Shown here one piece after another: positions 2,541-58,481 of a DNA stretch of 64,000 nt. The position numbers and the translations under genes are program-made. The DNA comes from an uncultured Spirochaetaceae bacterium (GTDB taxonomy: Bacteria; Spirochaetota; Spirochaetia; Treponematales; Treponemataceae). The notes beneath the pieces are model-generated. The model was not told the origin of the DNA and did no database searches. It was given only the letters and a program-made list of their open reading frames with translations. The stretch lies in contig CACYWZ010000002.1 in the NCBI GenBank assembly GCA_902778325.1, forward strand, positions 92,327 to 156,326. The letters run 5' to 3'. Within the stretch, counting starts at the first letter, position 1; the number at the start of each line of letters is the position of its first letter.

Positions 2541-2801
2541 GTATACGCTTCTTTCAATAGAAAAAGCAAGCCGTATACAATATGTATATGAGCAGAAAAC
2601 ATTCAAAGTCAGTCGTATACAAAGTGTATATTTTCTATCAATAGAATTTTCTGGTCATATACAATTTGTATTTTTAAAGAAAACACGCAAAGTGAGCGCG
2701 TATACATATTGTATATTGCTTTGCCAGCGTGTTTTTGACTCGTATACAATGTGTATACGGCTCAAAAATTCTACAAACCAGAACGTATACAATTTTGGTT
2801 G
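2541..2801. repeat. Phased palindrome array 1 (GTATACAATnTGTATAY, 42-43 bp period)
   Basis: Seven copies of a 17-bp inverted repeat start at 2541 (partial), 2573, 2615, 2657, 2700, 2742 and 2785 (partial). Intervals are 32, 42, 42, 43, 42 and 43 bp. The roughly 25-bp spacers are diverged. It lies between the lacI promoter and the 3' end of the GNAT gene. Chance ORFs run through it on both strands. Confidence 0.85.
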
Positions 2802-2871
2802 CTTTATCTTTCAAGGCTGCTCGTCTACACTTGCAAGACACTTGACTACCCGCTTCTTTTGACACGCAAAG

Positions 2872-3420
2872 TCAAAGCATGTTCACCATAATGATTTCAT
2901 CGCGATAAGAGCCGTCTTTGAGCTTGAACGCACGCGGAGTCATGCCGTATTCTTTGAAGTGCGCCTTTTCGTACAAATGGCGCGCTTTTGCATTGTCGCT
3001 GAAAACTCCGAGTTCAAGTTGCTCAAAGCCGTTTTTCCGAGCCTGCTCCACAGCCAGGTTTATCATAAAAGTGCCCAAACCTTGCCCTGTGTATTTTTGC
3101 CTGATAGACATTCCAAGATACGCTCTGTGGCGCATTTTGAGCAGCTCTCTCATACACACCACGCCCAAATCACCAATAATTTCGCCATCAAGATACGCAT
3201 TGACCAAAAAGTTTTGCTCGCTTTCTTCGATAGCCTTGAGTCGTTCCTTTCGCACCTCAAGGCTCATCTCGCCGTCCTCTGGATATCGCGCCATAAAGTG
3301 AGTTTCCGCTGCCACAGCCTCGTGATGAGCCTTCACCAAAGCCGCATCGTCTGCCGTCGCGCTTTTTATGACAACCTCTCTTCCGTTTTTGAGCACAAAC
3401 TTTGTTTCATCAATCTTCAT
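2872..3420 (-). CDS. GNAT family N-acetyltransferase
   Basis: Acetyl-CoA dependent N-acetyltransferase of 182 residues; substrate unknown. The acetyl-CoA pyrophosphate loop is QKYTGQGLGT (about residues 109-118), followed by the typical ELGVFSDNAKARHLYEKAHFKEYG region with the conserved N and Y. ATG 3420 is chosen because AGAGG precedes it; an upstream in-frame ATG at 3447 lacks one. It follows the CrtO-like gene by 29 nt on the same strand, so they are probably co-transcribed. A clear paralogue lies at 22214-22765, sharing the AAETHF segment, the HRA motif and the C-terminal FRLEDGS-type motif. Confidence 0.88.
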   Translation of the reverse strand: MKIDETKFVLKNGREVVIKSATADDAALVKAHHEAVAAETHFMARYPEDGEMSLEVRKERLKAIEESEQNFLVNAYLDGEIIGDLGVVCMRELLKMRHRAYLGMSIRQKYTGQGLGTFMINLAVEQARKNGFEQLELGVFSDNAKARHLYEKAHFKEYGMTPRAFKLKDGSYRDEIIMVNML

Positions 3421-3449
3421 AAAAACCTCTAAAATATCATACTGCAAAG

Positions 3450-3977
3450 TTAGTCAAAAGCAATCATTTTAAGATAGCGAGGGCGGTTATAGCGCTGTAT
3501 TATCACAAAAGGAATGTCGCAAATCGTAGAAAATATCGATGTGAGAAGAAAAACATTTGCTGCGCCAAAGAAAGCACAAAGGAAGAGCGGAGCAAAACTG
3601 AGAATGATGATTATTTCGTGCCCGATTTCAGCCCTAAGAGATGCCTCATAAATCTTTTTTGCCTCTTTTTTCCTTATATCGAACGACGAAGGGCGCGCAG
3701 TCGGGAGTTTTGCTTTCCAGCGCTTCACTTTCATAAGCGAATACAGTTTCCGCTCGGCTTTGCTCACTTTTATCCATCGCTTTGGAAGAGGAAGCACATT
3801 GCCCGCAAGAAAGCCAATAATAAGGCGCATAAAAAAATGATACGTCGTTGTTCCAAACGTGATTGAAAGCGTCAAAAACACACTTTCTGAAGTACACGCA
3901 TACAAAAGACAAAATAATATTGCAACCACAAAAAGAGCAATCGCAATAATTTTGATTTGTTTTACCCACTCACTCAT
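3450..3977 (-). CDS. CrtO-like membrane acyltransferase family protein
   Basis: Membrane protein of 175 residues with about four hydrophobic segments (near residues 8-28, 40-55, 125-143 and 145-165). The central KRWKAKLP motif and the RAEIGHEI motif resemble glycosyl-4,4'-diaponeurosporenoate acyltransferase (CrtO) family proteins, which are also found outside carotenoid pathways. No carotenoid genes are nearby, so the substrate is unknown. ATG 3977 is favoured because the further-upstream ORF extension would run a non-membrane lead-in into tRNA promoter DNA; no strong ribosome-binding site is visible. Confidence 0.55.
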   Translation of the reverse strand: MSEWVKQIKIIAIALFVVAILFCLLYACTSESVFLTLSITFGTTTYHFFMRLIIGFLAGNVLPLPKRWIKVSKAERKLYSLMKVKRWKAKLPTARPSSFDIRKKEAKKIYEASLRAEIGHEIIIILSFAPLFLCAFFGAANVFLLTSIFSTICDIPFVIIQRYNRPRYLKMIAFD

Positions 3978-4051
3978 AATCTTATTATCGCACAAGAAAA
4001 AAGAAGTTCTTATGCCAAAAGCAACAAAGCAGTATCGCATAAAAACAGTTA

Positions 4052-4081
4052 TTGACACTTTTATTTTGATTGACGTATTAT
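4052..4081 (+). promoter_or_regulatory. Promoter of tRNA-Ser(CGA)
   Basis: TTGACA at 4052-4057 and TATTAT at 4076-4081 are spaced 18 bp, ending 12 nt before the tRNA. Confidence 0.55.
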
Positions 4082-4093
4082 AATGCCATATTT

Positions 4094-4178
4094 GGAGCGA
4101 TGGCAGAGTGGTCGAACGCGGCGGAATCGAAATCCGTTATACCGCAAGGTATCGGGGGTTCAAATCCCTCTCGCTCCG
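4094..4178 (+). tRNA. tRNA-Ser (anticodon CGA)
   Basis: Type II tRNA with acceptor GGAGCGA pairing to TCGCTCC and discriminator G, a long variable arm (ATACCGCAAGGTAT), T-loop TTCAAAT and anticodon loop ATCGAAA. CCA is not encoded. Confidence 0.93.
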
Positions 4179-4240
4179 AGGATTCGTTGTACTAAACAAT
4201 AGGGGAAATAAAAAAATAAAAGATTTTTTCCTTTTTCCTA

Positions 4241-4269
4241 TTGACACTTTTTCCAAAATAAAATAGTAT
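4241..4269 (+). promoter_or_regulatory. Promoter of tRNA-Ser(TGA)
   Basis: TTGACA at 4241-4246, a 17-bp spacer and TAGTAT at 4264-4269, 16 nt before the tRNA. The second tRNA-Ser therefore has its own promoter. Confidence 0.6.
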
Positions 4270-4285
4270 ACGAATACGCTGTTTT

Positions 4286-4370
4286 GGAGCGATGGCAGAG
4301 TGGTCGAACGCGGCGGTCTTGAAAACCGTTATACCGCAAGGTATCGGGGGTTCAAATCCCTCTCGCTCCG
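4286..4370 (+). tRNA. tRNA-Ser (anticodon TGA)
   Basis: Nearly identical to the CGA tRNA upstream, differing mainly in the anticodon arm (GGTCTTGAAAACC). This suggests a local duplication. Same acceptor, long variable arm and discriminator G. Confidence 0.94.
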
Positions 4371-4378
4371 TATTGCGT

Positions 4379-4463
4379 GGAAGCGTGGTAGAGCGGTAAT
4401 ACAACGGATTGCTAATCCGTCACTTCCGTAAGGGGTGGGCAGGTTCAACTCCTGTCGCTTCCG
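4379..4463 (+). tRNA. tRNA-Ser (anticodon GCT)
   Basis: Acceptor GGAAGCG pairs with CGCTTCC, discriminator G, anticodon stem CGGAT/ATCCG with anticodon GCT, and a long variable arm (CACTTCCGTAAGGGGTG). It begins 9 nt after the preceding tRNA and is probably part of the same transcript. Confidence 0.93.
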
Positions 4464-4493
4464 TCGGACCAAACGGTTTGGTTTAATTTATTT

Positions 4494-4569
4494 GAGATTG
4501 TAGCTCAGTTTTGGATAGAGCGCGTCCCTGCGGAGGACGAGGTCGCACGTTCGAATCGTGTCAGTCTCA
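4494..4569 (+). tRNA. tRNA-Arg (anticodon GCG)
   Basis: A 76-nt tRNA: acceptor GAGATTG/CAGTCTC with discriminator A, anticodon stem CGTCC/GGACG and loop CTGCGGA, which places GCG at positions 34-36. Bacteria normally use ACG (inosine) for the CGN box, so a G34 tRNA is unusual. A terminator hairpin follows. Confidence 0.85.
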
Positions 4570-4575
4570 TTATTC

Positions 4576-4606
4576 AGGTCTGCCAAAATCATGGCGGACC
4601 TTTTTT
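4576..4606 (+). terminator. Terminator after tRNA-Arg
   Basis: GGTCTGCC / GGCGGACC stem with an 8-nt loop followed by six T residues. Confidence 0.85.
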
Positions 4607-4616
4607 CGTAATCACT

Positions 4617-4703
4617 GGAAAGTTGTCCGAGTGGTTTAAGGTCCACGCTTGGAAGGCGTGCATACTCGAAAGAGTATCCGGGGTTCGAATCCCCGACTTT
4701 CCG
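4617..4703 (+). tRNA. tRNA-Ser (anticodon GGA)
   Basis: Type II tRNA: acceptor GGAAAGT/ACTTTCC, discriminator G, anticodon stem CACGC/GCGTG with loop TTGGAAG, and long variable arm ATACTCGAAAGAGTAT. It is the fourth serine isoacceptor in 600 bp. Confidence 0.94.
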
Positions 4704-4709
4704 ATATAT

Positions 4710-4809
4710 GAGTCCATGTTCTAAGCAAGATGTGGGCGCAAAACCCCGCCAGATTCGGAAGAAAGCAACGGTATGCGCTTTATGTCTGTGCCCTAGTCAA
4801 CATGGGCTC
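4710..4809 (+). ncRNA. ffs: Signal recognition particle RNA, small bacterial (4.5S) type
   Basis: About 100 nt. The ends pair (GAGTCCATGTT with AACATGGGCTC). The apical domain contains the conserved TTCGGAAGAAAGCAACGGT region, corresponding to the GGAA tetraloop and asymmetric loop of E. coli 4.5S RNA that bind Ffh. A T6 run at 4810-4815 gives the terminator. It begins only 7 nt after tRNA-Ser(GGA), so the two may be processed from one transcript. Confidence 0.85.
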
Positions 4810-4833
4810 TTTTTTATGCGAAGGGAAAAATCT

Positions 4834-5238
4834 ATGAGCGACAAAAAACTGTATAGTTGCATCACAAAAGCCACAAAAAGCGAAAACGGAAATCCAAGAC
4901 ATTCAATAAATTGGCTACTTTCAAAAAGAGGCGTCTTTTCAGTTTATGAAGATTATGTAAAATGCGGGGACTGGCAAATCTTGTTCTCACAAATTAAGTC
5001 GGCAAAACTTTACAAGACAAAGCAAATGTTTATCCCCGTAAATGTCCTTGAGCTGACAACGGAAACCGAGTCATACCAATTCGGCTTTAATCCGTGGGCA
5101 AATCCGTTCAAGAACCTCAAAATCGAATACGAAGTTGAAAGCGTAAAAATGGGGATGTCAGCATTCAGCCTTATTTTGCGAATTGCGCTTTTGATAAGCC
5201 TTCTCTTGATTTTCATCACAGAATACATCCAAAAATAA
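4834..5238 (+). CDS. Hypothetical protein with C-terminal membrane anchor
   Basis: A 134-residue protein of unknown function. The N-terminal 105 residues are soluble and beta-strand rich (WQILFSQIKSAKLYKTKQ, then VLELTTETESYQFGF), reminiscent of small membrane-anchored PH-like domains, but I cannot assign a family. A single hydrophobic helix (about residues 112-130) ends in EYIQK. ATG 4834 is chosen because AAGGGA precedes it and the longer frame from 4708 would translate the SRP RNA. No partner gene is evident. Confidence 0.72.
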   Translation: MSDKKLYSCITKATKSENGNPRHSINWLLSKRGVFSVYEDYVKCGDWQILFSQIKSAKLYKTKQMFIPVNVLELTTETESYQFGFNPWANPFKNLKIEYEVESVKMGMSAFSLILRIALLISLLLIFITEYIQK

Positions 5239-5318
5239 AGCCACAAAAAAGAGCAAAAAATATCTACGGAAAATCTGTTTTGTCTGTTATGATAAAAGAT
5301 AAGGAGAAAAACAGATTT

Positions 5319-6344
5319 ATGGATAAAGTCGTAACCTTCGGCGAAATTATGATGCGCATACAACCGCCAGATTATTACAGGTTCGTGCAGGTTGATTCGA
5401 TGACAACTACATTCGGAGGCGCAGAGGCGAATGTCGCGGTGTCTTTGGCGAACTTCGGGCTTGACTCGTACTATGTCACAAAACTTCCCGCCCACGAAAT
5501 CGGGCAGTCGGCTCTCAACGCGCTGAGGCGCTACGGCGTGAGGACAGATTACATCGTGCGCGGAGGAGAAAGGCTCGGAATCTATTTCAATGAGCGCGGC
5601 GCAAGTCAGAGAGGCTCAAAGTGCATCTACGACCGCAAGGGCTCGGCGATTTCACTGGCGAGAAGCGATGAGTTCGACTGGGAAAAAATCCTTGATGGCG
5701 CAAAGTGGTTTCACATCACGGGAATCACGCCCGCACTTGGCGAAAACATGGTTCAATCGTGCATTGACGCCGCGATTATCGCCCACAAGAAAGGCGCTAA
5801 AGTCTCGCTGGACATAAATTATCGCGCAAAACTCTGGACGAAGGAAGAAGCGCGCGAGGCATTGAGCAAAATCTGCAAGCACGTCGATATTTGCATTGCC
5901 AACGAGGACGATGCAGCCGACGTCTTCGGAATCAGGGCGGAGAACACCGACACGAAGAAGGGCGAAGTCAATACAGACGGCTACATCAGCGTCGCGCGAG
6001 GGCTAAAAGAGATGTTCGGCTTTGAAAAAGTCGCAATCACTCTCCGCTCGTCAATAAACGCAAGCCGAAACGACTGGCAGGCGCTCCTTTATGCAAACGA
6101 AAACGATTATGCCTTCTCCTCGAAGTACGAAATCTGGATTGTGGACAGGGTTGGCGGAGGCGACAGCTTTACGGCGGGTCTCATTTACTCAACGCTCAAA
6201 GGAAAGAGCACGCAAGAAATTGTGAGCTGGGCAAATGCCGCCTCATGCCTGAAACACTCAATAATCGGTGATTTTAACATGGTCAGCGCCGAGGAAGTTG
6301 AAAAATTGGCGCGAGGTGACGCGTCAGGACGCATTCAGCGCTAA
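5319..6344 (+). CDS. kdgK: PfkB-family sugar kinase, probable 2-dehydro-3-deoxygluconokinase
   Basis: ATP-dependent kinase of 341 residues. It probably phosphorylates 2-keto-3-deoxygluconate to KDPG in uronate/pectin breakdown. It begins MDKVVTFGEIMMRIQPP and has the PfkB signatures: FGGAEANVAVSLANFG near residues 32-47 for sugar binding, and VGGGDSFTAG with catalytic Asp282. AAGGAG lies 12 nt before ATG 5319, a little far; the upstream in-frame ATG 5280 has no better site. Family members with this opening are usually annotated KdgK, but other keto-sugar substrates are possible. No KDPG aldolase is adjacent, and it appears monocistronic with its own terminator. Confidence 0.85.
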   Translation: MDKVVTFGEIMMRIQPPDYYRFVQVDSMTTTFGGAEANVAVSLANFGLDSYYVTKLPAHEIGQSALNALRRYGVRTDYIVRGGERLGIYFNERGASQRGSKCIYDRKGSAISLARSDEFDWEKILDGAKWFHITGITPALGENMVQSCIDAAIIAHKKGAKVSLDINYRAKLWTKEEAREALSKICKHVDICIANEDDAADVFGIRAENTDTKKGEVNTDGYISVARGLKEMFGFEKVAITLRSSINASRNDWQALLYANENDYAFSSKYEIWIVDRVGGGDSFTAGLIYSTLKGKSTQEIVSWANAASCLKHSIIGDFNMVSAEEVEKLARGDASGRIQR

Positions 6345-6367
6345 TCCAAAAGTTATTTTTCAATATC

Positions 6368-6397
6368 GGGAGCAGAAAATGCTCCCTATTTTTTTTG
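6368..6397 (+). terminator. Terminator after KDG kinase
   Basis: GGGAGC / GCTCCC hairpin with a 7-nt loop, followed by TATTTTTTTT. Confidence 0.85.
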
Positions 6398-6431
6398 ATA
6401 TTTTGTATCGATTTGGGAAAACGGTCTTTCC

Positions 6432-6685
6432 TTGTTGCAAATTCAGCCAAAGAACTGCTTTTCTCTTCATTTGCATTGCAAAAACACTCAAAAACTGATT
6501 TTTCAGAGCATTTGCAATGCAAATTGTCTGGATATAGATTTTCTCACCTATTTGCACAGCAAATTGAATGAAAACCATTTTTTCACGCTTTTTGCATTGC
6601 AAATAGAGCAAAAACACCGCTCTTCGCACTTTTTGCATTGCAAATTCCTTGAAAAACGCATTCATCTCTTCATTTGCAATCAGGA
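6432..6685. repeat. Phased palindrome array 2 (TTTGCATTGCAAAT, 40-41 bp period)
   Basis: Units start at about 6432 (partial), 6470, 6511, 6551, 6591, 6632 and 6673 (partial), giving intervals of 38, 41, 40, 40, 41 and 41 bp. The core is a palindrome TTTGCAnTGCAAA. Spacers of about 27 bp are unlike each other except for A/T runs. It lies between convergent gene ends. Confidence 0.85.
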
Positions 6686-6695
6686 TTGCTCATCT

Positions 6696-7421
6696 TTAGC
6701 GTCCGAAGAGAGAAAAACCTCTTCCAGAGCGCGAAATGTGTGCGCCAGGCTTAATCCACTGAATTGTTTTGCTCATATTCTTTCCTCGCTCGCAATATTC
6801 GCCCAGATATTGGAAAATCCAACGTGCGAGCGCGCTATCCTCGCGGAATTCTTGCTCTTCGCAGTCGGCAAGGACAAGAAAAAAGTCTGCAAAGTCGCTT
6901 TCGAGGTTCATCGCCGCAAGATTTTCGGCAAAAGCCATAAAAGAGGCGGCGGCGGCGGATATATGGGGGAGGGAAGCGCTCGTTTTGTCCAGACCTTCGC
7001 GTGAAAGGGAGACAAGGGAGTAATTTTTTCGAATCAGGAAAATAATTTTTGCTTTCTCGCTTCCTTTTTGCTTTTTGAAGCGTTCCAAAAGCGAGAGGGA
7101 AAGATACTGAAAGCCGGCATTCTCTTCGTCCAAAACTTTTGAGCATTCGCTTATCGTCATGGTTTTCATGTTCCTGGAAAGTTCTTCTTCGTCAAAATAA
7201 AGCAGTGCCTCGCTTATTTTTGCTGAAGAGCTTTGAGATTTGACGAGAAAATTTTTTGTGGAAATCGGAGAGCTTTTATTCCAAAAGATTTCGTATTCTT
7301 TATTGCTCTCGCCCTGCGTTTTCACGCTTCTGAAAGCTTTTCTTCCATTTCTTTGCGCTTCTTCAAGAAATGCTCGTGTGTCTTTTCCTGCCTGAATGAA
7401 GATTTTTTCCATATTTTCCAT
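6696..7421 (-). CDS. Hypothetical cytoplasmic protein
   Basis: A 241-residue Lys/Glu/Ser-rich protein, predicted mostly helical, with no signal peptide, membrane segment or recognised motif. The start region is MENMEK; ATG 7421 or 7412 could be used, and neither has a Shine-Dalgarno. A minus-strand TATAAT (7437-7432) lies 10 nt before ATG 7421, consistent with a leaderless message. The gene is divergent from the DAACS transporter, and the two promoters overlap. Its 3' end abuts phased array 2. Function unknown. Confidence 0.7.
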   Translation of the reverse strand: MENMEKIFIQAGKDTRAFLEEAQRNGRKAFRSVKTQGESNKEYEIFWNKSSPISTKNFLVKSQSSSAKISEALLYFDEEELSRNMKTMTISECSKVLDEENAGFQYLSLSLLERFKKQKGSEKAKIIFLIRKNYSLVSLSREGLDKTSASLPHISAAAASFMAFAENLAAMNLESDFADFFLVLADCEEQEFREDSALARWIFQYLGEYCERGKNMSKTIQWIKPGAHISRSGRGFSLFGR

Positions 7422-7455
7422 GATGGATTGGATTATAGCACATATCTGATAAATC

Positions 7456-7484
7456 TTGTAGCAGAGTTTTTAGTATGGTATAAT
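7456..7484 (+). promoter_or_regulatory. Promoter of DAACS transporter
   Basis: TTGTAG at 7456-7461, a 17-bp spacer and an extended -10 TGGTATAAT ending at 7484. The ATG at 7495 is 10 nt after the -10, with no Shine-Dalgarno, so the mRNA is probably leaderless. Confidence 0.7.
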
Positions 7485-7494
7485 TTTGCTCATT

Positions 7495-9401: not shown

Positions 9402-9408
9402 AGAAGAG

Positions 9409-9541: not shown

Positions 9542-9548
9542 GAAAGTA

Positions 9549-14604: not shown

Positions 14605-14780
14605 GCTCCTGCATGTTGCGCAAAGCCGTTTTACAAGAAAAATGCTCTCCTGCACGCTGCGCCAAGTCGTTTTACAAGAAAAAAAGACTCCTGCACGCTG
14701 CGACAAGCAATTTTGCAAGAAAAAAACGTTCCTGCACGTTGCGGGAGTCAATTTTTGAAGAAAAATGAGTTGTTGCACGA
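14605..14780. repeat. Phased array 3 (CTGCACGCTGCG, 41 bp period)
   Basis: CTGCA cores at 14609, 14650, 14691 and 14732, with TTGCA at 14773, spaced exactly 41 bp each time. The unit reads CTGCACGCTGCG, a variable stretch, then TTTTnCAAGAAAAA. Three middle units are highly similar and the edges decay. It ends about 50 bp before the DUF6261 start at 14833. Confidence 0.88.
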
Positions 14781-14832
14781 TAAAAGCAAAAGCAATAAAA
14801 TGTGAATATATTTCTTCAATAGGGAGATTTCA

Positions 14833-15549
14833 ATGAAACGAACTGCAAGATTTAGTTCTTTGGCGCGACTTTCTGAACTGGTCGCGGGGTTTGAAAGAGT
14901 GGTTTCATGGCTTTCCGAGCTTTCGCCGGAAGACGATGAATATCTTTCAGAGCAGAAAAAAGAACTTGAGAAGCAGACGAAACAGATTACAGCATCGCTC
15001 AAAAAAGACAGAGCGTACTCCCAACACGAAGAACTTGATGCTCTCCGCGATAATCTGCTAAAGTTGCTTTTCAAGCTCATCGACGGCTATACGGCACACC
15101 CTGACGCAAAAATCGCACAGAGCGCAAAAACGATTTTCGACAAAATCAGCAAAAAGTATTCGTCAATTGCACGCGCAAACTACGAAGAAGAGTCCGGGCT
15201 TTTGTCCAGTATGTTTGGTGATTTTGAGACGGAGGAGTTTTCTTCAGCTGTCAAAGATTTGAACGGGGTCAGCGAGCGTCTTTCACAGCTCAAAACGGCT
15301 CAGGAGAACTTTGAGAAGGCTCACAAGGTCTATATCGAGGCTCTTAAAGCCGAAAAAAGTGAGGAGAGCGCGACTTCAATAAAGAAAAAGGCGCTCTATC
15401 TTGTGAACGACGAACTTGTGCCGTATCTTTCGACGATGCGCCGTGTCAAAAAAGCGCAATACGAGAAACTCGCGCAGATGATTGAAGGCGAGATTCAGAA
15501 CGTAAACGACAAAGTTGTAACAAGGAGCAAAAATGAGAAAAAAGCGTAA
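14833..15549 (+). CDS. DUF6261 family protein (copy 1)
   Basis: A 238-residue helical protein matching the DUF6261 pattern: N-terminal ARFSSLARLSELV, a central KKDRAYSQHEELDALRD block, AKTIFDKISKKYSSIARANYEEESGLL, then a C-terminal helical bundle. Function unknown for the family. AGGGAG precedes ATG 14833. It is the first gene of a probable operon with LolA-like, MMPL and DUF4105 genes (17-nt overlap with the next). Two paralogues lie at 33360 and 57465; all three follow a phased repeat array. Confidence 0.78.
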   Translation: MKRTARFSSLARLSELVAGFERVVSWLSELSPEDDEYLSEQKKELEKQTKQITASLKKDRAYSQHEELDALRDNLLKLLFKLIDGYTAHPDAKIAQSAKTIFDKISKKYSSIARANYEEESGLLSSMFGDFETEEFSSAVKDLNGVSERLSQLKTAQENFEKAHKVYIEALKAEKSEESATSIKKKALYLVNDELVPYLSTMRRVKKAQYEKLAQMIEGEIQNVNDKVVTRSKNEKKA

Positions 15550-20330: not shown

Positions 20331-20593
20331 TATGTCCGCGACGATTTTTTCAGGCCAAAGCCAAGTACATTTGTCCATGAGACCAAAACACTTCAGGCGC
20401 TCTCGAGAACTTTTGTCCGCGACAAGAAATCACTTCAAGGAAAGCAAAGTACATTTGTCCACGAGGGAAAAACACCCGAAAAGTCGTCATGGATTTTTGT
20501 CCTCGACAGGAAATCACCCCAAGAAAAGCAAAGTACATTTGTCCGCGACAGAAAAATACCCGAAGCGTCCTCGTGGACTTTTGTCCGCGACAA
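20331..20593. repeat. Phased array 4 (TTTTGTCCGCGACA, 42 bp period, ABAB)
   Basis: TGTCC starts at 20333, 20372, 20414, 20456, 20498, 20540 and 20582: one interval of 39, then five of exactly 42 bp. Units alternate between two types. Type A has AAGTACATTTGTCC (20372, 20456, 20540) and type B has CTTTTGTCCGCGACA or close variants (20414, 20498, 20582), so the higher-order period is 84 bp. The core TGTC-n3-GACA is palindromic. Confidence 0.9.
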
Positions 20594-20610
20594 AAAACAA
20601 AAAAAACGCC

Positions 20611-22765: not shown

Positions 22766-22868
22766 TTCTTTGTCATTGGCGAACTCGTTTCGGAATCTCT
22801 TTGTCAAAAACATTTTCTGATGCAGATGCTGAAACAAGTTCAGCATGACACAGCGTGTTTTCTGTTTA

Positions 22869-23082
22869 TTCTACATGGAAAAAGGCTCAAAACGCTCAAA
22901 GTCGCCTTGTTCTACGTAGAATTGACGGAATTTGACTGATTTTGACGTTTTCGCGCGTAGAACTGACGGACTTTGACTGAAGTTGCTCATTTCTACGTAG
23001 AAATAACAAAAAACGCTCAAAGTCGCCCTTTTTTCATGTAGAAATGGCTGACTTCGTTCAAAGTCGCTTTTTATCCGCAGAA
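22869..23082. repeat. Phased palindrome array 5 (TTCTACGTAGAA, 39-41 bp period)
   Basis: Unit ends fall at 22880, 22921, 22962, 23002, 23043 and 23082, giving intervals of 41, 41, 40, 41 and 39. Two units are perfect TTCTACGTAGAA palindromes. Spacers share a CAAAGTC core that occurs in both orientations: GCTCAAAGTCGCC in three spacers and GGAnTTTGACTGA in two. The last, decayed unit lies inside the final codons of the MATE gene. Confidence 0.88.
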
Positions 23083-24389
23083 AAATAGTAAATCGTGAAC
23101 AAAATCGTCGAAAGCGCCCACGTTATCGGATAAACGCAGTTGACGATGAGGATTGAATGGGCGAACATAAAGCCGATTGTCAAAATCGTTACGCGGATTA
23201 TGCACCAGCAGATGAGCATGACGACCATCGGAACGATTGACTTGCCCTGCCCGCGCAAAATTGCGGAAAGCGCGTGCGAATACGCCAAAAGGCAGTAAAA
23301 GAACGAGCAGACTCTCGCCCGCGAAACTCCATATGCGACGGCTTCGGCGTTTGAGTCGAATGCGCTTACCAAAAGGGGCGCAAAGGTGAATGTGACAAGT
23401 CCGATTGCTTCTGCCAAAATGCAAGTCCAAAGCGTGCCGAACCTTGCGCCCTCTTTGACGCGGTCAAACTCTTTTGCGCCGATGTTTTGCGAAACGAATG
23501 TTGTCAGAGCCGCCGTAAAGCTCGTGATTGGCAAGAAGGCAAAGCCCTCGATTTTGCTGTATGCGCCTTGTCCCGCCATCGCAAGCGCGCCGAATGAGTT
23601 GATGTGCGACTGAACGACGATGTTCGCAAAGCCGATGATTGAGTTTTGCGCTCCCGACGGCACTCCGATTCGGATTATCTTTTTGAAAAGGCTTATGTCG
23701 ATAGAAATCTTTTTGAGATAAAGGCGGTGGCTTCCCTCGACCGTGAGCAGCTTTTTAAGGCACAAAACGACGCTCAATGTTTCCGAGATGACGGTTGCAA
23801 GCGCGACAGAGCCGACTCCCAAGCGCAAAACGCCGACAAAAAAGAAATCCAGCGCGATGTTCGCGACTGACGACACGATGAGGAAATAAAGCGGGGATTT
23901 GCTGTCGCCTGCTGCGCGCAAAATCCCCGTGAATGTGTTGTACAAAACGAGGACGAGGCTTCCCGAAAAGTAGATGCGGAAATATACGAGGGATTCTGCC
24001 ATAACTTCGTCGGGTGTGCCGATTAAGCGCAAAATCACGGGGGCGAGGAAAATGCCCAAAACAGTAAGGAGCGCGCCAGTGATTAAACCGAGCGAAACGG
24101 TGGTATGCACGGCTTTTTGTGTCTGCGAGGCATCTTTTGCGCCGATGAAATGACCGATAACGACGCCAGCTCCCATAAAAACGCCGTCGAAAAATCCCAC
24201 GAGCAAGAAAATCAAGTATCCTGCTGAAGACACTGCCGCAAGTGCGCGAGAGCCGATGAAGTTTCCGACGAAAAGAGAATCCGCCGTGTTGTAAAGCTGC
24301 TGAAACATACTGCCAATAAACACAGGCAGCGCAAAATAGACGATGTTACGCGACACCGCCCCTGTTGTCATATCTATTGTATTTTTCAT
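23058..24389 (-). CDS. MATE family efflux transporter
   Basis: Twelve-helix cation-coupled multidrug exporter of 443 residues. MATE hallmarks include the N-terminal ALPVFIGSMFQQLYNTADSL, the GxG and helix-loop patterns in both halves, and GVPSGAQNSIIGFANIVVQ opening the second half. It exports drugs or metabolites with sodium or proton exchange. ATG 24389 follows the FGE-domain gene by 15 nt on the same strand without a strong Shine-Dalgarno, so it is probably co-transcribed. Its 3' end carries one unit of phased array 5. Confidence 0.93.
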   Translation of the reverse strand: MKNTIDMTTGAVSRNIVYFALPVFIGSMFQQLYNTADSLFVGNFIGSRALAAVSSAGYLIFLLVGFFDGVFMGAGVVIGHFIGAKDASQTQKAVHTTVSLGLITGALLTVLGIFLAPVILRLIGTPDEVMAESLVYFRIYFSGSLVLVLYNTFTGILRAAGDSKSPLYFLIVSSVANIALDFFFVGVLRLGVGSVALATVISETLSVVLCLKKLLTVEGSHRLYLKKISIDISLFKKIIRIGVPSGAQNSIIGFANIVVQSHINSFGALAMAGQGAYSKIEGFAFLPITSFTAALTTFVSQNIGAKEFDRVKEGARFGTLWTCILAEAIGLVTFTFAPLLVSAFDSNAEAVAYGVSRARVCSFFYCLLAYSHALSAILRGQGKSIVPMVVMLICWCIIRVTILTIGFMFAHSILIVNCVYPITWALSTILFTIYYFSADKKRL

Positions 24390-32854: not shown

Positions 32855-32910
32855 AATTCGCAAAAAAAAGAAGCGCAAAAATCCCGCTTTCATCACTGCA
32901 TTGACGTAAA

Positions 32911-33118
32911 CTACAGTTTAAAGCCTTCTTCACTTTGAAGAAGCCAATAAATTCCAGTTTAAAGAGTCATGCAGCAGTGAAGCAGCAAATAAATTCCAGT
33001 TTAAACGCTTCTTCACGCTGAAGAAGATAATAAATTCCAGTTTAAAGAGCCATGCAACAGTGAGGCAAACAATAAATTCCAGTTCACGAGTTTCTTCACG
33101 CTGAAGAAGAGAAAAAAC
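32911..33118. repeat. Phased array 6 (CCAGTTTAAA, 41-42 bp period, alternating spacers)
   Basis: CAGTT starts at 32914, 32955, 32997, 33038 and 33080 (41, 42, 41, 42 bp). Spacers alternate: CTTCTTCACgCTGAAGAAG-type inverted repeats (first, third, fifth) with GCAnCAGTGAnGC-type (second, fourth). The true higher-order period is therefore 83 bp. AATAAATTC precedes four of the five cores. Confidence 0.9.
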
Positions 33119-33132: not shown

Positions 33133-33274
33133 TTTGTCATTCTGAGCGAAGTGAATGCAATGAGCGGAGTCGAAGAATCTAGCCCACAAAATCACAATCT
33201 CCTATGAAAATGCACAATCAGATTCTTCGACTACAAACGGTTTCACCGTTTTTCGCTCAGAATGACACAGGGAG
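33133..33274. repeat. REP-like long inverted repeat
   Basis: GTCATTCTGAGCGAAG with CGAAGAATCT on the left, and AGATTCTTCGACTAC with CGCTCAGAATGACA on the right, form an imperfect inverted repeat spanning about 140 bp. Elements of this type are dispersed in many bacterial genomes. Confidence 0.7.
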
Positions 33275-33359
33275 TCTAAATTCTGAACATCACAACAGGC
33301 AAAAAAATATTTACACGAAGTTTTCAAAGGTCTATAATCGCAGTCAATTGGAGTTCGTT

Positions 33360-34049
33360 ATGAGTTATTTCAAATATAATTCAACTATTACGACGGTCAA
33401 CACGATAGCATTTGCTGTCGCGGAAATGGTGGAAAAGCAGAAGAGCGACGACAAAACGCTCAATCTCTTCGGCTCTAAGATTAAAGAAAAGGCGGACGCA
33501 CAGTCTATCGCGATTAAAAAAGACCGCGTGTACTCAGGGCTCGACGTTCTGGATTCACAAAGGGACACGCTTTGGAAGACGACAATCGACATCGTGAGCG
33601 CCTACAAGAAAAATCCCGTGGAAACGCTCTCACAGGCGGCGATTTTGATTTATCCAATCGTTGAAAAATACGGAAAAAAGATAACCAGAGTCGCATACGA
33701 CGAGGAAACGGCGTACTTGAAGAGCGCACAAACTGATTTGAGCGCGCCGAACGTGGCGGAAGCGGTCAAAGTTCTTCCTGGTCTTGACGAAACGCTCGAA
33801 AAACTCTGGGCGAAGAACGCGGAGTTTGAAGGTCAAACCGCTTCGTTCGTCTCGCAGAACGCAATCGACGAGAAAAACGCTACAATCTTGAAAAAAGATT
33901 TGGTTTCGCTTATCAACTCGCTTGTCTCATACGTCGAGGCGGTCGGCGCTGTCCGAGATGACTTGACGGAGTTCGGCAAAGAGCTTGAGGCAAGAATCGA
34001 GCGCGCAAACGCTCAGGACGCAGAGGCAAATAAGAAGAAAACAGAGTAA
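33360..34049 (+). CDS. DUF6261 family protein (copy 2)
   Basis: A 229-residue helical protein with DUF6261 landmarks: TVNTIAFAVAEMVEKQ, KKDRVYSGLDVLDSQRD, AILIYPIVEKYGKKITRVAYDEETAYL and GLDETLEKLWAKNAEFE. It ends in a charged tail. GGAG precedes ATG 33360; the longer frame from 33204 runs into a REP element and is rejected. Phased array 6 lies about 240 nt upstream. Paralogues at 14833 and 57465. Function unknown; the terminator at 34083 follows. Confidence 0.78.
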   Translation: MSYFKYNSTITTVNTIAFAVAEMVEKQKSDDKTLNLFGSKIKEKADAQSIAIKKDRVYSGLDVLDSQRDTLWKTTIDIVSAYKKNPVETLSQAAILIYPIVEKYGKKITRVAYDEETAYLKSAQTDLSAPNVAEAVKVLPGLDETLEKLWAKNAEFEGQTASFVSQNAIDEKNATILKKDLVSLINSLVSYVEAVGAVRDDLTEFGKELEARIERANAQDAEANKKKTE

Positions 34050-51969: not shown

Positions 51970-52320
51970 TTGACGCCATTTCTTTCTTCCTTGACGAAAG
52001 GGAAACTCTCCTAAAGATGAAAACTTCTCTCCTTGACGTGAATTACTCTCTTTTTGACGTTGTTTTTACTTTTTGCAATGTTGCAAGTCTTGTTTTTGAT
52101 GTTGCAAAGATAATTTGCAATCTTTCAAAATATTTTTGCTATGTTGCAAAATGTCTTTGTGATGTGAAAAACACTAATTTTTATGTTGCAAATTCTTTTT
52201 GCAATGTGGAAAAATAAAATTGCGACGTTACAAATTTATTTTGCAATGTGGAAAAAGTGTTTTGCAATGTGGAAAATATTATTTTTGATATAAAAAAGGC
52301 TTGTTTTGATGTTGTTTTCT
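51970..52320. repeat. Phased array 7 (TTTTTGCAATGTTGCAAA, exact 21 bp period)
   Basis: The central AYG of each unit falls at 51973, 51994, then 52036, 52057, 52078, 52099, 52120, 52141, 52162, 52183, 52204, 52225, 52246, 52267, 52288 and 52309, all in strict 21-bp register. Only the unit at 52015-52017 is shifted. Early units read TTGACG; later ones TTTTGCAATGTnGnAAA. The 800-bp gap 51672-52471 holds no convincing gene. Confidence 0.92.
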
Positions 52321-52471
52321 TGATAAATCGTAAGAAACTTGATTGTTTTCTTCTTTTTCTTTCAAAATCCGAGAAAAAGGAGAGTTTTTCCGTCTTTTAT
52401 TATTTTTCAAAGAATGTCGAATTTAGAAGGTTTGGTTTCTAAAAGTCAAAAAGGCGTGCTATAATTTATTT

Positions 52472-55336: not shown

Positions 55337-55354
55337 AGATAGAAAGAGGTTTTT

Positions 55355-55876
55355 ATGAGAAAAATTCTTGTTGTCGTTGATATGCAAAACGATTTTATCG
55401 ACGGCTCTCTTGGTACTCCTGAGGCTCAAGCAATTGTGGAGAACGTGAAAGCGAAAATCCGCTCTTATCGCGCTGAGGACATCTTTGCCACTCGCGACAC
55501 GCACAGCGCGGATTATCTTTCCACTCAGGAAGGCAAAAAACTGCCTGTTGTGCATTGCGTGAAAGGCTCTCACGGCTGGCAAATCCGCGCGGACATCGCC
55601 GAGTTGCTCAAGAATGCCGTGATTGTGGACAAGCCCACTTTTGGCTCGACAGAACTTGCGCAGAAAATCGCTGCGATTGCCAAAAGTGAAGAAATCGTGG
55701 TGGAATTGGTAGGTCTTTGCACAGACATTTGCGTTGTGTCGAATGCGCTTTTGCTCAAGGCAACTTTGCCCGAAATGCCCGTCAGCGTGGACTCAAGCTG
55801 CTGCGCGGGAGTGTCGCCTGCCACTCACAAAGCCGCTCTTGAAACAATGCGCTGTTGCCAAGTCGATGTGATTTAG
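55355..55876 (+). CDS. pncA: Nicotinamidase (isochorismatase-like cysteine hydrolase)
   Basis: Hydrolyses nicotinamide to nicotinic acid for NAD salvage; 173 residues. Catalytic triad is Asp9 (VVDMQNDF), Lys93 (IVDKPTFGS) and Cys126 (GLCTDICVVSN). RDTH (47-50) contributes the metal site and HCVKGSHGWQI the substrate loop. AAAGAGG precedes ATG 55355. It is 18 nt after the kinase gene and probably shares its transcript. Other isochorismatase-family amidase activities cannot be excluded. Confidence 0.88.
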   Translation: MRKILVVVDMQNDFIDGSLGTPEAQAIVENVKAKIRSYRAEDIFATRDTHSADYLSTQEGKKLPVVHCVKGSHGWQIRADIAELLKNAVIVDKPTFGSTELAQKIAAIAKSEEIVVELVGLCTDICVVSNALLLKATLPEMPVSVDSSCCAGVSPATHKAALETMRCCQVDVI

Positions 55877-55912
55877 CTTTTGATTGATTTTTTATTGAGA
55901 GCAAAAAATAAA

Positions 55913-55945
55913 CCCTGCCGCAAAAAAATGGGCAGGGCTTTTCTT
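55913..55945. terminator. Bidirectional-position terminator between pncA and rpsU
   Basis: CCCTGCC / GGCAGGG hairpin followed by CTTTTCTTTT on the plus strand. It sits just before the convergent rpsU stop and may serve both genes. Confidence 0.75.
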
Positions 55946-55956
55946 TTCGCTAAAAA

Positions 55957-56163
55957 CTAGTAGTCTTTGCGCTCTGACTTTCTTCTCTTGTTCAAAAGTT
56001 TTCTCTCAAGAGTAGTCTTCTTCTGATGAAGTGTGGCAGAAGGCTTTACGAAATACTCACGCTTTTTGAACTCGCGGATAATGCCTTCTTTTTCAACCAT
56101 ACGCTTGAAGCGCTTGATTGCTTTCTCGAGGTTCTCTGTATCCTCAACCATGATTGTTGCCAT
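55957..56163 (-). CDS. rpsU: 30S ribosomal protein S21
   Basis: A 68-residue basic ribosomal protein: MATIMVEDTENLEKAIKRF, then EGIIREFKKREYFVKPSATLHQKK and a basic C-terminal tail. A strong AAAGGAGGTG precedes ATG 56163, which rejects the upstream extension to 56241. It lies between pncA and the XRE regulator. Confidence 0.96.
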   Translation of the reverse strand: MATIMVEDTENLEKAIKRFKRMVEKEGIIREFKKREYFVKPSATLHQKKTTLERKLLNKRRKSERKDY

Positions 56164-56265
56164 TTGTTTCACCTCCTTTGTTCTCGGAGTGCCGAAAAGT
56201 GTTGTCAGTATAGCAAAGGCGCTTTTTTTAATCAAGCGCAAACCGCCGTTTTTGCGGGGCGCTTT

Positions 56266-56586
56266 TTAGTATTTTTCATTGAGCGCGTTGATGACGGTTG
56301 TAATCACATTGAGGTCGCTGCTTGAGAATCGCCTGAGCTTGTTTTCGATTTCGGAAAGCCGTGAATTCTCAGTATTCTTTTTTGGCGATTCACTCATTTC
56401 AAGTAAATAATCAAGAGAAACTCCCAAAAAGTGCGCAACTTTCAACGCGGTATCTGCATACGGGATACTGTTTCTTTTTATGCCAAAGCTGATGTTTGCC
56501 ACATCGAAGCCGACTGCTGCTGCAAGTTCTTTGCGTGTTTTTCCCAAATATTTTAATTCATAATCTACGTTTTGCCAAAAGTTCAT
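56266..56586 (-). CDS. XRE-family transcriptional regulator
   Basis: A 106-residue repressor-like protein. HTH_3 domain at about 5-62 (LGKTRKELAAAVGFDVANISFGIKRNSIPYADTALKVAHFLGVSLDYLL, read as consecutive motifs), then a short helical C-terminus (SSSDLNVITTVINAL). It is divergent from the DUF1232 gene, and the gap contains a near-perfect long palindrome overlapping the opposite promoter, a likely target. The layout resembles small phage- or toxin-type repressors but no phage genes are here. Confidence 0.88.
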   Translation of the reverse strand: MNFWQNVDYELKYLGKTRKELAAAVGFDVANISFGIKRNSIPYADTALKVAHFLGVSLDYLLEMSESPKKNTENSRLSEIENKLRRFSSSDLNVITTVINALNEKY

Positions 56587-56619
56587 AGGTTTTAGTATTG
56601 AGAAAAGATATTTTTTGAC

Positions 56620-56647
56620 TTGAAATAATTAAGTAATGATATATAAT
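56620..56647 (+). promoter_or_regulatory. Promoter of DUF1232 gene
   Basis: TTGAAA (56620-56625), 16-bp spacer, TATAAT (56642-56647). Predicted transcription start is at about 56654, the first base of the operator. Confidence 0.55.
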
Positions 56648-56653
56648 GTGTAG

Positions 56654-56677
56654 TATAATTAAGTGAACTTAATTATA
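56654..56677. promoter_or_regulatory. XRE operator palindrome
   Basis: A 24-bp inverted repeat with arms TATAATTAAGT and ACTTAATTATA around a 2-bp centre, plus an extra AATTAAGT half-site at 56627-56634. It sits at the predicted start of the DUF1232 transcript. Confidence 0.7.
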
Positions 56678-56710
56678 AGTGCCAAAATTTAACAATCGTT
56701 AGGAGGCTTT

Positions 56711-57097
56711 ATGAAAAAGAGCTTTACGCAAGAAGAGATAAATAAAAAGTTTAGTTCTTTCAAAACGTATTCTAACAGTGATATGAATAAAGTTTTGAAT
56801 AATGAAAGCAAATTGAAGCAAATGTGCATCGACAATGAGCCGCTGAGAGATTTTTTGGATACTGTGAGCTTGTATATAGATATGCTTCGGGCTATTTTCA
56901 CTGGTAAATATAAAGAAGTTCCTGTAGGAACTATTGCGGCTATTGTTGGTACGCTTTTGTATGTGTTGTCGCCTATTGATATTATTCCTGACCCTATTCC
57001 TGTCGTTGGATTTCTTGACGATGCGGCTGTAATGGCGGCTTGCTTGAACTTTACAAAGTATGATGTAGATAAATATAAACGTCATTTGGGTAAATAA
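56711..57097 (+). CDS. DUF1232 (YkvA-like) membrane protein
   Basis: A 128-residue protein with the YkvA/DUF1232 motif SPIDIIPDPIPVVGFLDD (about 86-103) within a hydrophobic hairpin (about 68-113) and a soluble N-terminal helix region. Function unknown; such proteins are often stress-linked. AGGAGG precedes ATG 56711. The operator upstream implies control by the divergent XRE protein. A small gene follows 25 nt downstream. Confidence 0.85.
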   Translation: MKKSFTQEEINKKFSSFKTYSNSDMNKVLNNESKLKQMCIDNEPLRDFLDTVSLYIDMLRAIFTGKYKEVPVGTIAAIVGTLLYVLSPIDIIPDPIPVVGFLDDAAVMAACLNFTKYDVDKYKRHLGK

Positions 57098-57122
57098 AGT
57101 TTAATTGATTTTGGAGGAAGCT

Positions 57123-57335
57123 ATGGGATTTAGAGATTCGTTTGAAAAGGCTGATATTGCCATAAAAATAGGGTTACTGAAAAAAGAGGAAGTTTTTACA
57201 CCAAAAATTATTTCTCCAGACTATCAGTATGAATTAAAGCTCAAAGCCCTTGAAAGAGGAATCAGAAAGGGTGGAGAAGGTATTACAAAGGGAATTTATG
57301 GTCTAAATTCTTTTTTATCTATGTTTAAAAAATAG
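57123..57335 (+). CDS. Small hypothetical protein
   Basis: A 70-residue protein, MGFRDSFEKADIAIKIGLL, with a Gly-rich middle (ERGIRKGGEGITKGIYGLN) and a hydrophobic end. TGGAGGA gives a good ribosome site for ATG 57123. It is likely co-transcribed with the DUF1232 gene and may be its partner. No family recognised. Confidence 0.65.
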   Translation: MGFRDSFEKADIAIKIGLLKKEEVFTPKIISPDYQYELKLKALERGIRKGGEGITKGIYGLNSFLSMFKK

Positions 57336-57464
57336 ATGAAGAATCTAAACACCTGCGGATATTGTTTTCGTAGTTTTTTTTTGTGCGAAAAAACAAAAAT
57401 GCACCCAAAAACACTCACCCCCTGAGCGCCAAAAGATGAGCGGACAGGAGGTGAGAAGCGAGTG

Positions 57465-58196
57465 CTATTTCTTTGCGGCAGAAGAATGCTTTGAAGTCAA
57501 TGAGTTTGCGCGAGATACGTCCTCATCGATAACAGACGCGATAGGTGCATAAGTCGCAGAATCAAGCAAAGACGCAGCGCTCAGGAACGGCAAAATCTTG
57601 TCGTTGATGCAGTGCAAAATCTCCTTTTTCAAGTCAGAAGACGATTTTGACACCTTGCCAGCCGCGTTTTTCTCCGCCGTTTGATTGAACGCCTGAGAAA
57701 ATGCCGCGTGTGCTTCCCCTATCGCTTCCACAGCCTCGCCAATCCCTCCGAGAAGCTCAATCGCTGCTTTTGCCTTGTCGTTTTTGAACTCGTCGAGAGC
57801 GCTTTCAATCGTCGTCGTTTCACTGGCAAAGTTAAGACGAGCCGCACTCTTTCCGCCGTGTCGGGAATACAAGTCGAGAAGAGTCTTCGCCGCCTCCTTT
57901 TTCTCGCCCTTTTGAAGCGCGAAATGTCCTTCCAGTCCCGTGCCGAGAGCCGTCCAAGCCTCGTCTAGCGCACGGTCAAGGTCGTCAAGACTGCTCTTTG
58001 ATTTTTCGCTGTTGAGAGTGCTGATTGCGCTTTTTGTGAGCGTATCCAGTTCCGCAAAACCCACATTCAAAAGCGGACATTTTTCTGCCAAGCCCGACGA
58101 AGCCCAATGAGAGAGCATCGCCTGCGCTGCCGTTGGAATCTCTGAAACACGAATTGAGCCAGAAAGGTTCTTTATGCCACTTTTTCCTGAATACAT
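57465..58196 (-). CDS. DUF6261 family protein (copy 3)
   Basis: A 243-residue helical protein with a DUF6261-like architecture: N-terminal GSIRVSEIPTAAQAML, central LDDLDRALDEAWTALG, SRHGGKSAARLNFASETTTIESAL, then a four-helix C-terminal part ending in Ser/Lys. It is more diverged than copies 1 and 2. CGGAGGA precedes ATG 58196. Phased array 8 begins 65 nt upstream, divergent from hipBA. Confidence 0.7.
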   Translation of the reverse strand: MYSGKSGIKNLSGSIRVSEIPTAAQAMLSHWASSGLAEKCPLLNVGFAELDTLTKSAISTLNSEKSKSSLDDLDRALDEAWTALGTGLEGHFALQKGEKKEAAKTLLDLYSRHGGKSAARLNFASETTTIESALDEFKNDKAKAAIELLGGIGEAVEAIGEAHAAFSQAFNQTAEKNAAGKVSKSSSDLKKEILHCINDKILPFLSAASLLDSATYAPIASVIDEDVSRANSLTSKHSSAAKK

Positions 58197-58260
58197 AGTT
58201 TCCTCCGAAAAAATAATGTCATAAACATTATACCACCAAAAAACATTTGTGATTCACATT

Positions 58261-58481
58261 TCACAGCACTTGAGAAATCCAAAAAAGAGCTTGAACGCTT
58301 CTCACAGCCGCTACGCCTTGAAGCAAAAGAGCGATTTTTCAATCGGAAGAGCTGTGAGAGGCGACGCAGAAGTTTTTTTGATTTCACAGCCGTTCCGATG
58401 CAAAAAACAAAAGTGTTTCCTTCATCACAGCGGTTGTGATGAGAAAAATGCTTTTGTGTCCACAATCGGAAACTTTCCGAT
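58261..58481. repeat. Phased array 8 (TCACAGC / TCGGAA half-sites, 41 bp period)
   Basis: Dyad centres fall at 58268, 58309, 58350, 58391, 58432 and 58473, each exactly 41 bp apart. Units combine two half-sites, A (TCACAGC) and B (ATCGGAA): B-A' at 58350, A-B' at 58391, A-A' at 58432 and B-B' at 58473. The 58350 unit is an inverted copy of 58391. Confidence 0.88.

Follow-up and report, generated by a model that had tools for sequence, protein, structure and literature searches.

What are the phased palindromic arrays that punctuate the intergenic regions of an uncultured Spirochaetaceae bacterium, and which protein, if any, do they belong with? The question arises from a 64-kb window (the whole stretch analysed; positions 92,327 to 156,326 of contig CACYWZ010000002.1, assembly GCA_902778325.1) of a Treponema-type genome (G000; 3.35 Mb, 173 contigs, 94% complete), in which eight arrays with differing cores share a pitch of about 41 or 42 bp, or 21 bp in one case. 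We found that such arrays are located directly upstream of genes of the DUF6261 family (PF19775), for which we know of no function, in two phyla, and that a short N-terminal segment of the encoded protein changes together with the array core. The DUF6261 genes and the phased arrays are probably two halves of one module in which the protein reads its own array, a link that is absent from an earlier note on this DNA, as is the likeness of many solo arrays to the DUF6261-linked ones.

Local autocorrelation (240-bp windows, lags 15-100, z>4.8) recovered all eight arrays, with the best lags at 84/85 bp for array 2541, 41 for 6432, 14605 and 22869, 84 with 42 for 20331, 83 with 41 for 32911, 21 and 42 for 51970, and 41 with 82 for 58261; the 21-bp unit that had been proposed for array 51970 is confirmed. 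Beyond these, two marginal windows pass the scan, at 23881 (lag 36, z 4.8) and 38601 (lag 90, z 4.9). Tandem Repeats Finder detects five of the eight, missing 2541, 22869 and 58261. No Rfam family was matched at any of the arrays, the six matches in the window being five tRNAs and the signal recognition particle RNA, 4094-4810. Three of the eight arrays are directly 5' of a DUF6261 gene, and all three genes score above the Pfam gathering cut-off of 27 bits. The arrays and genes, in window coordinates, are as follows.

2534..2796, no strand: solo array element (array 2541), palindromic core GTATACAnnnTGTATAC at 42-43 bp, terminal inverted repeats AAAAATTGTATACG...CGTATACAATTTT, dispersed copies in the genome
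6432..6680, no strand: solo array, core TTTGCATTGCAAA, pitch 40-41 bp, dispersed relatives exist
14605..14780, no strand: DUF6261-adjacent array, unit CTCCTGCACGCTGCG..., pitch 41 bp
14833..15549, + strand: DUF6261 protein, 238 amino acids, Pfam 69.5 bits; AlphaFold2 model with a predicted N-terminal extended arm and a helical body
20357..20597, no strand: solo array (20331), core TTTGTCCGCGACAA, pitch 42/84 bp
22869..23070, no strand: solo array, core TTCTACGTAGAA, pitch 41 bp
32905..33117, no strand: DUF6261-adjacent array (32911), core TAAATTCCAGTTTAAA, pitch 41-42 (83) bp, member of a dispersed family
33360..34049, + strand: DUF6261 protein, start codon inferred in a frame open from 33204; Pfam 67.6 bits for 33204-34049
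52070..52300, no strand: solo array (51970), 21-bp unit, core TTTTGCAATGTTGCAAAA
57465..58196, - strand: DUF6261 protein, Pfam 51.6 bits
58255..58485, no strand: DUF6261-adjacent array (58261), core TCACAGCnGnnGTGA, pitch 41/82 bp, directly 5' of the gene 57465-58196

The association holds throughout the genome and well beyond it. G000 has 28 DUF6261 matches, with a phased array directly 5' in 27 of the 28 loci. The family is present in eight of 59 same-genus genomes, including this one, and the other seven have an array at 20 of 21 DUF6261 loci (21 of the 22 same-genus matches outside G000 were taken in and one was left out). A pattern scan of species genomes yielded 68 loci from Treponema, Segatella, Prevotella, Hoylesella, Phocaeicola, Bacteroides, Parabacteroides, Palleniella, Bergeyella and a Bacteroidales, and in ten chosen Bacteroidota genomes, 30 of 100 matches were examined and 70 left out. 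Once 20 duplicate or near-identical loci and 7 with less than 250 bp of upstream sequence (contig ends) were subtracted from 150, there were 123 distinct loci from Spirochaetota and Bacteroidota, and 115 of these have an array directly upstream, with a lag of 41 (50 loci), 42 (51) or a multiple (14). The equal-sized stretch downstream of DUF6261 contains an array in 0 of 114 cases. In the control, which covered the sequence upstream of open reading frames (ORFs) of at least 200 codons, G000 has arrays at 40 of 241 (DUF6261 genes included), same-genus genomes at 2 of 222 where DUF6261 is present and at 1 of 221 where it is absent, and the Bacteroidota samples at 13 of 209. The pitch follows the protein clade: in the Treponema clade with a Bacteroidota-like protein, it is 42 or 84 bp at each array-bearing locus, and in the oral Prevotella clade it is 41 bp. 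The protein of locus L088 in the same-genus genome G052 is 100% identical to that of L111, so that G052, judged from this one locus, is Treponema sp. isolate HAN028.

Two individual cases deserve mention. In Palleniella muris (L161), no array is detected upstream of DUF6261; individual sites there, for example CAGGAAACTGTGTTTTCCG, are nevertheless similar by eye to the L157 core, and L161 and L157 have the arm ISLER in common, so that this region is perhaps an eroded array. DUF6261 genes with arrays are also present in two human-gut records annotated as 'Bacteriophage sp.' (L109 and L110; MT839608.1 and MT837725.1), either bacterial DNA in a phage collection or phage carriage; a search of viral_contigs found no relative of the query.

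In the Treponema paralogues, which are about 80% identical, the array cores form classes, and residues 5-11 of the protein change along with them. The covariation set comprises 28 of 59 Treponema proteins in four core classes, with unclassified and start-truncated (L133) proteins and one identical protein dropped. The adjusted mutual information (AMI) with the core class is 0.97 for column 8, 0.81 for column 10, 0.70 for column 11 and 0.61 for column 7, and averages 0.53 over columns 5-11 compared to 0.04 for the 116 other variable columns; identity within and between classes is 0.81 and 0.31 in columns 5-11 versus 0.84 and 0.84 in columns 12-60, and 0 of 1000 label shuffles reached the observed covariation. 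The coupling ends at codon 11, the mean AMI for the third positions of codons 12-20 being 0.07. The core TCCGAGGCCTCCGA is paired with the arm x[TS][LI]PLT[ST], TCAAGTGCCACTTGA with QSIFLG[NG], TCAAACGCCGTTTGA with xSI[AS]LVN and AATTTGGTGCAACAAATT with [TQ][ST][FV]Y[VIL][GS]G. Positions 7 and 9 stay hydrophobic, and covariation with the core peaks at positions 8 and 10, columns 7 and 11 covarying as well; such an alternation would be as in a strand with alternate residues exposed.

Arm and core have switched together repeatedly. On the best tree of the protein bodies (from residue 20), the class changes 11 times among the 28 proteins, the minimum being 3, and the sister pairs L111/L119 and L120/L146, which are on starred branches of this tree, differ in class. 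Similar pairings can be read by eye in Bacteroidota: the arm TIDLHS goes with TGCCGAGGTTCGGCA, SIHLPN with TGCTCAACTTGAGCA, SINLPA with TTTGCTGAACCTCAGCAAA and, in two records, DINIQR, the arm in Segatella copri, with TTGATTGCAATCAA; by the same inspection, the outer bases of TGCCGAGGTTCGGCA, TGCTCAACTTGAGCA and TTTGCTGAACCTCAGCAAA are common and the inner bases change with the arm. Two loci that share the arm DISLPR (L153 and L155) have arrays that are weakly alike (39 bits). That a short N-terminal stretch changes with the palindrome suggests that each protein may read its own array.

Judged from sequence, DUF6261 is most likely a dimeric, sequence-specific DNA-binding protein. In ribbon-helix-helix proteins, base specificity resides in an N-terminal strand of which every other residue reads the bases, and the extended N-terminal arm of DUF6261 (residues ~5-11) would read the palindromic core in a similar manner, probably as a two-stranded ribbon. 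The dimer would match the palindrome, and the helical body may link neighbouring dimers, all on the same face of the DNA and separated by four helical turns (41 or 42 bp), yielding a cooperative assembly. Located 5' of the gene and upstream of, or overlapping, the promoter, the array could serve both as an operator for autoregulation and as an assembly site, and solo intergenic arrays would be further binding sites of the same protein, spread by copying or transposition. New specificities would arise when the arm and the array core change together, with the body and the pitch retained.

The position of the putative promoters is compatible with this scheme. The best promoter-like pair begins 45-80 bp ahead of the start codon at 20 of the 27 G000 loci, and its spacer is 17 bp long at 16 of the 27; as these sites are near the start codon, the array would be in an operator position rather than in a leader RNA. 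The example from the window is:

14773..14801, + strand: promoter-like TTGCAC-17-TAAAAT, consensus match only, with the -35 element within the last unit of array 14605

Most arrays are not linked to a DUF6261 gene: among 66 sampled arrays of G000, 7 are gene-linked and 59 are solo. Nevertheless, 26 of these 59 are similar to the sequence upstream of one of the 28 DUF6261 genes, with scores of at least 60 bits, a level reached by 0 of 300 array-free stretches (11 of the 300 pass an E-value of 1e-3, with the best at 48 bits). Array 2541 resembles the upstream region of the DUF6261 gene at L073 (117 bits), and array 22869 that of L061 (88 bits). Array 2541 has 12 further copies of about 260 bp or more in the genome, with 71-87% identity; eight copies of this family can be aligned over their full length, with exact inverted termini, and differ completely in their flanks. 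In seven same-genus genomes, which match the window piece at ~64-80% over long stretches, no clean empty site was found, so that the case for insertion is made from the exact ends and the unrelated flanks. No DNA similar to array 2541 was found in the plasmids searched, and, as regards array 6432, no array was detected around four same-genus PfkB matches (L219, L220, L221, L229). Comparison of seven copies of the 32911 family shows spacers that differ between units and a core, TAAATTCCAGTTTAAA, that is mostly retained, suggesting that the core is what is selected. The cores of the eight window arrays, presented in the earlier note as unrelated, do differ, but several of these arrays, 2541 for example, belong to dispersed families.

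As a separate observation, a solo array of Prevotella micans (L274:2561-3280) has inverted flanks of ~100 bp (by eye), and the whole locus could form one long hairpin.

The own-genome sample consists of 20 stretches plus the window, 461 kb in total with 429 kb unmasked (13% of the genome); here and in the other genomes, densities refer to samples, not whole genomes. Above z 5.5, these 429 kb contain 78 locally periodic clusters, of which 58 are at lags of 40-43 or 81-85, 7 at 20-22 and 13 elsewhere. In an earlier scan at z>5.0, 91 clusters were detected compared to 3 in a mononucleotide shuffle, 2 of the 91 being N-masking artefacts. The off-period clusters include some at lag 69, an example of which (L054) was read by eye as coding leucine-rich repeats. 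The genome-resident class of arrays with differing cores and one pitch, inferred in the earlier note from the window, thus extends to the genome sample, where 65 of the 78 clusters are at the expected lags: the lag spectrum shows a sharp excess at 20-22, 40-43 and 81-85 bp, and the broad range of periods that would have been expected of conventional minisatellites was not found. Extrapolation from the sample would give about 500 phased arrays for the genome.

Masked samples L044 and L049 were excluded from the placement and palindrome tests. Open frames of at least 200 codons contain 20% of the array bases versus 77% of all bases (64 arrays from 19 samples), and 10 of the 64 arrays are mostly inside such a frame; for the 48 arrays that could be classed, the flanking genes are tandem, convergent or divergent in 23, 13 and 12 cases compared to 74, 26 and 27 for all gaps. 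The low share in frames and the background-like orientations indicate that the arrays are mainly intergenic, without a clear preference for promoters or terminators, in agreement with the earlier view that they are no simple class of either. With automatic consensus calling, the core palindromes score a mean of 11.9 out of 16 versus 9.9 (standard deviation 1.5) for shuffled units, an excess that is moderate partly because core calling is crude (see L061, L066, L097); a second dyad at the half-period is not supported (Wilcoxon p 0.097, 83 arrays).

Array density was compared with the number of DUF6261 matches. G000, with 28 matches, has 58 arrays at 40-43/81-85 (+7 at 20-22) per 429 kb; seven same-genus genomes with 1-10 matches have together 2 (+2 at 20-22) in 400 kb; and nine same-genus genomes without DUF6261 have 2 marginal ones (lag 84, z under 6) in 387 kb. 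The Bacteroidota samples contain 8 (+2) per 100 kb with 38 matches, 5 per 80 kb with 33, 2 (+4) per 80 kb with 11, 0 (+1) per 60 kb with 4, and 0 per 79 kb with a single match. DUF6261 matches number 38 in Parabacteroides sp. An277 and 33 in Prevotella micans. The sampled densities are therefore highest in the three genomes with 28-38 DUF6261 copies, from two phyla, although the order among the three is not strict. Of the treponemes compared, the own genome is rich in phased arrays, and the same-genus genomes are almost devoid of them in the samples. What does extend across lineages is a conserved period with diverged cores: the pitch is kept in two phyla and the core is not. Such conservation argues for a functional pitch rather than a by-product of copying, an issue that the earlier note had left to inference.

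Several results weigh against the module as proposed. Eight of the 123 DUF6261 loci lack a detectable array (one of them, L129, has a stop within the frame), and 33 of the 59 solo arrays, including 6432, 20331 and 51970, have no strong match to DUF6261 upstream regions. The two AlphaFold2 models (mean predicted local distance difference test scores of 87.4 and 90.7) are all-helical, and their long helices begin after the first dozen residues: in the first model, residues 1-12 are without helix and helices span 13-30 and 36-86, and in the second, residues 1-13 have a 3-residue turn at most and a helix spans 14-30. Both are monomers with no strand assigned, and fold comparison of one model retrieved only generic helical bundles, with part of the body resembling four-helix bundles. 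No ribbon-helix-helix family is among the matches listed for 36 N-terminal segments, a search that remote relatives can escape, and neither such a family nor a solved structure is among those listed from PDB profile searches. Promoter scores are modestly above those of shuffles (mean 8.2 versus 7.5, standard deviation 1.0). The four core classes were defined after the motifs had been seen and cover 28 of the 59 proteins; the class labels show some clustering on the body tree (11 changes versus a shuffled mean of 14.1, as low in 2 of 200), in which 14 of 25 inner branches are open and the starred branches force 2-3 changes per class. In Bacteroidota, arrays with the same arm are often alike throughout and hence do not count as independent cases; at several loci, automatic core finding was unsuccessful. 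Finally, the third positions within codons 5-11 follow the class too (mean AMI 0.38, 6 positions), as do the 20 bases preceding the start codon (AMI 0.20) and column 2 (0.42, the best of the other columns). The third-position and pre-start signals indicate that the array and the arm codons also travel together as DNA, and the covariation could in part reflect physical linkage, given that the arm coding sequence adjoins the array. Taken to the extreme, the array and the first 11 codons would be co-inherited through recombination in the conserved block past codon 11 (codons 12-20), with no recognition involved. This we consider improbable because the coupling has a sharp edge at codon 11 instead of a decay, the changes centre on residues 8 and 10 with 7 and 9 staying hydrophobic, and the palindromic cores are kept while the spacers vary.

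The main rival casts the arrays as selfish miniature elements mobilised by DUF6261 or by a lost partner, with the pitch reflecting the geometry of a synaptic complex. This possibility is compatible with the module proposed here and evokes the repetitive extragenic palindromic (REP) sequences, dispersed intergenic palindromes that are regularly spaced in bacterial interspersed mosaic elements and have a cognate gene for a REP-associated tyrosine transposase (RAYT). As in that system, dispersed palindromic repeats are related to copies beside a cognate gene, here in the case of the 26 matching solo arrays; the differences are the fixed 41/42-bp repeat, the helical DUF6261 protein that does not match the RAYT family, and the location of the array 5' of the gene. 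A pairing of this kind would here lack a tyrosine transposase: the Y1 (HUH) transposase PF01797 has 0 matches in the 94% complete G000, compared to 5 of 14 control genomes that are positive. The 2541 family, with its exact inverted ends between unrelated flanks, the many dispersed copies and the peak densities in the three genomes richest in DUF6261 all fit mobility. Conversely, DUF6261 has no consistent match to a transposase or nuclease family, the gene-linked arrays stay 5' of the gene in two phyla, and the same-genus genomes with 1-10 DUF6261 genes are almost free of solo arrays in the samples; on balance, we regard this explanation as unlikely. Still less probable, and slightly below pure linkage, is that the array templates an RNA bound by DUF6261, with tandem hairpins transcribed 5' of the gene. 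Type III toxin-antitoxin modules (ToxIN and relatives) indeed have tandem repeats immediately 5' of a small gene, and the cores could fold as hairpins, but the promoter-like sites are near the start codon, beyond the array, most sampled arrays are solo and occur in all gene orientations, the 21/42/84 pitch family fits DNA turns, and neither an Rfam family at the window arrays nor a consistent PADLOC match was found. Compared to type III modules, the array here is apparently upstream of the promoter, many arrays have no gene, and the protein has no match in the libraries scanned. As for conventional minisatellites that share a period by an accident of slippage, their tandem arrangement and variable copy number are accounted for, but this reading is contradicted by the sharp lag spectrum at 21/41/42/83, the near-absence of arrays from same-genus genomes without DUF6261 and the linkage to one gene family in two phyla, and we give it hardly any credence.

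The systems closest in logic to the DUF6261 module are REP/RAYT and the operator or centromere arrays of ribbon-helix-helix proteins. MetJ with its met boxes, ParR-parC and omega are ribbon-helix-helix proteins with phased arrays of sites upstream of their own genes; they share with the present case the repeated phased sites upstream of the protein's own gene, and the N-terminal strand that gives them specificity would have its counterpart in the DUF6261 arm. DUF6261 differs in that no such family is among its listed matches, in its ~180 further helical residues, in the four-turn pitch and in the number of dispersed arrays, estimated at a few hundred for a single genome; moreover, no conserved partner gene is seen among neighbour ORFs of at least 100 codons. 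Clustered regularly interspaced short palindromic repeats (CRISPR) have constant repeats, unique spacers and cas genes, whereas here the cores vary and the spacers are partly shared between units (by reading). In the part of the report available to us, the BrickBuilt miniature inverted-repeat transposable element of Porphyromonas gingivalis is described as an intergenic tandem array within an element with inverted ends, likewise in Bacteroidota; it differs in having a 23-nt unit without a spacer, and no DUF6261 link is seen there (PMC4596501). We found no description of arrays like those reported here in the open-access library searched, in line with the earlier note, which knew of no such system; there, PF19775 goes unmentioned and DUF6261 is mentioned once, in a single paper. 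What appears to be new, though less so should DUF6261 be a ribbon-helix-helix protein, is the combination of a fixed-pitch array, a cognate protein, a swappable reading arm and many parallel specificities per genome.

A family of proteins with no known function is thus given a role that can be tested, and repeats found in two phyla are given a partner. A more far-reaching extension, which we put forward as tentative, is that of a genomic addressing system in which each cell would contain dozens of mutually orthogonal DUF6261 paralogues. Each paralogue, with its 7-residue arm, would cover its own set of dispersed arrays at four-turn spacing, and together they would form nucleoprotein bars by which the chromosome is organised or insulated and which expand by array copying; addresses would change by swapping arm and core, and the natural set would amount to a readable protein-DNA recognition code. 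If the module is real, the arm/core pairs of the paralogues would constitute a natural data set on how a short peptide specifies a palindrome, modules with specificity swapped in seven residues could be useful DNA-binding parts, and those genomes that combine 28-38 paralogues with numerous dispersed arrays would represent a new kind of chromosome organisation or a selfish expansion.

Several other repeats and genes adjoin the arrays. A 26-27-bp repeat at ~22824-22851 of the window (GATGCTGAAACAAGTTCAGCATGACA) recurs near-unchanged at dozens of same-genus sites, chiefly in G003 and G038, and belongs to a separate repeat class; repeats of the GTCATTCTGAGCG...GTCGAAGAATCT type adjoin two arrays (window 33139-33181 and L041:11345-11490) and probably represent a further dispersed palindromic repeat. 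A gene for a HipA-like kinase and an ORF without a Pfam match are located at 58779-60793, next to array 58261 and its DUF6261 gene. Clustering of neighbour ORFs of at least 100 codons revealed no third gene common to all clades, with no search aimed specifically at ParA/ParM families. Genes with a 69-bp period, probably encoding 23-residue leucine-rich repeats, are located near DUF6261 in 27 loci, nearly all from Treponema plus L170 of Prevotella micans; they are downstream of DUF6261 in many of the Treponema loci (L111-L149) and might be a regulated target. In the oral Prevotella relatives (L108, L165-L174), a large gene of ~3.6 kb for a probably secreted protein flanks DUF6261 in eight loci, and in L108, a 3.7-kb gene is present on each side.

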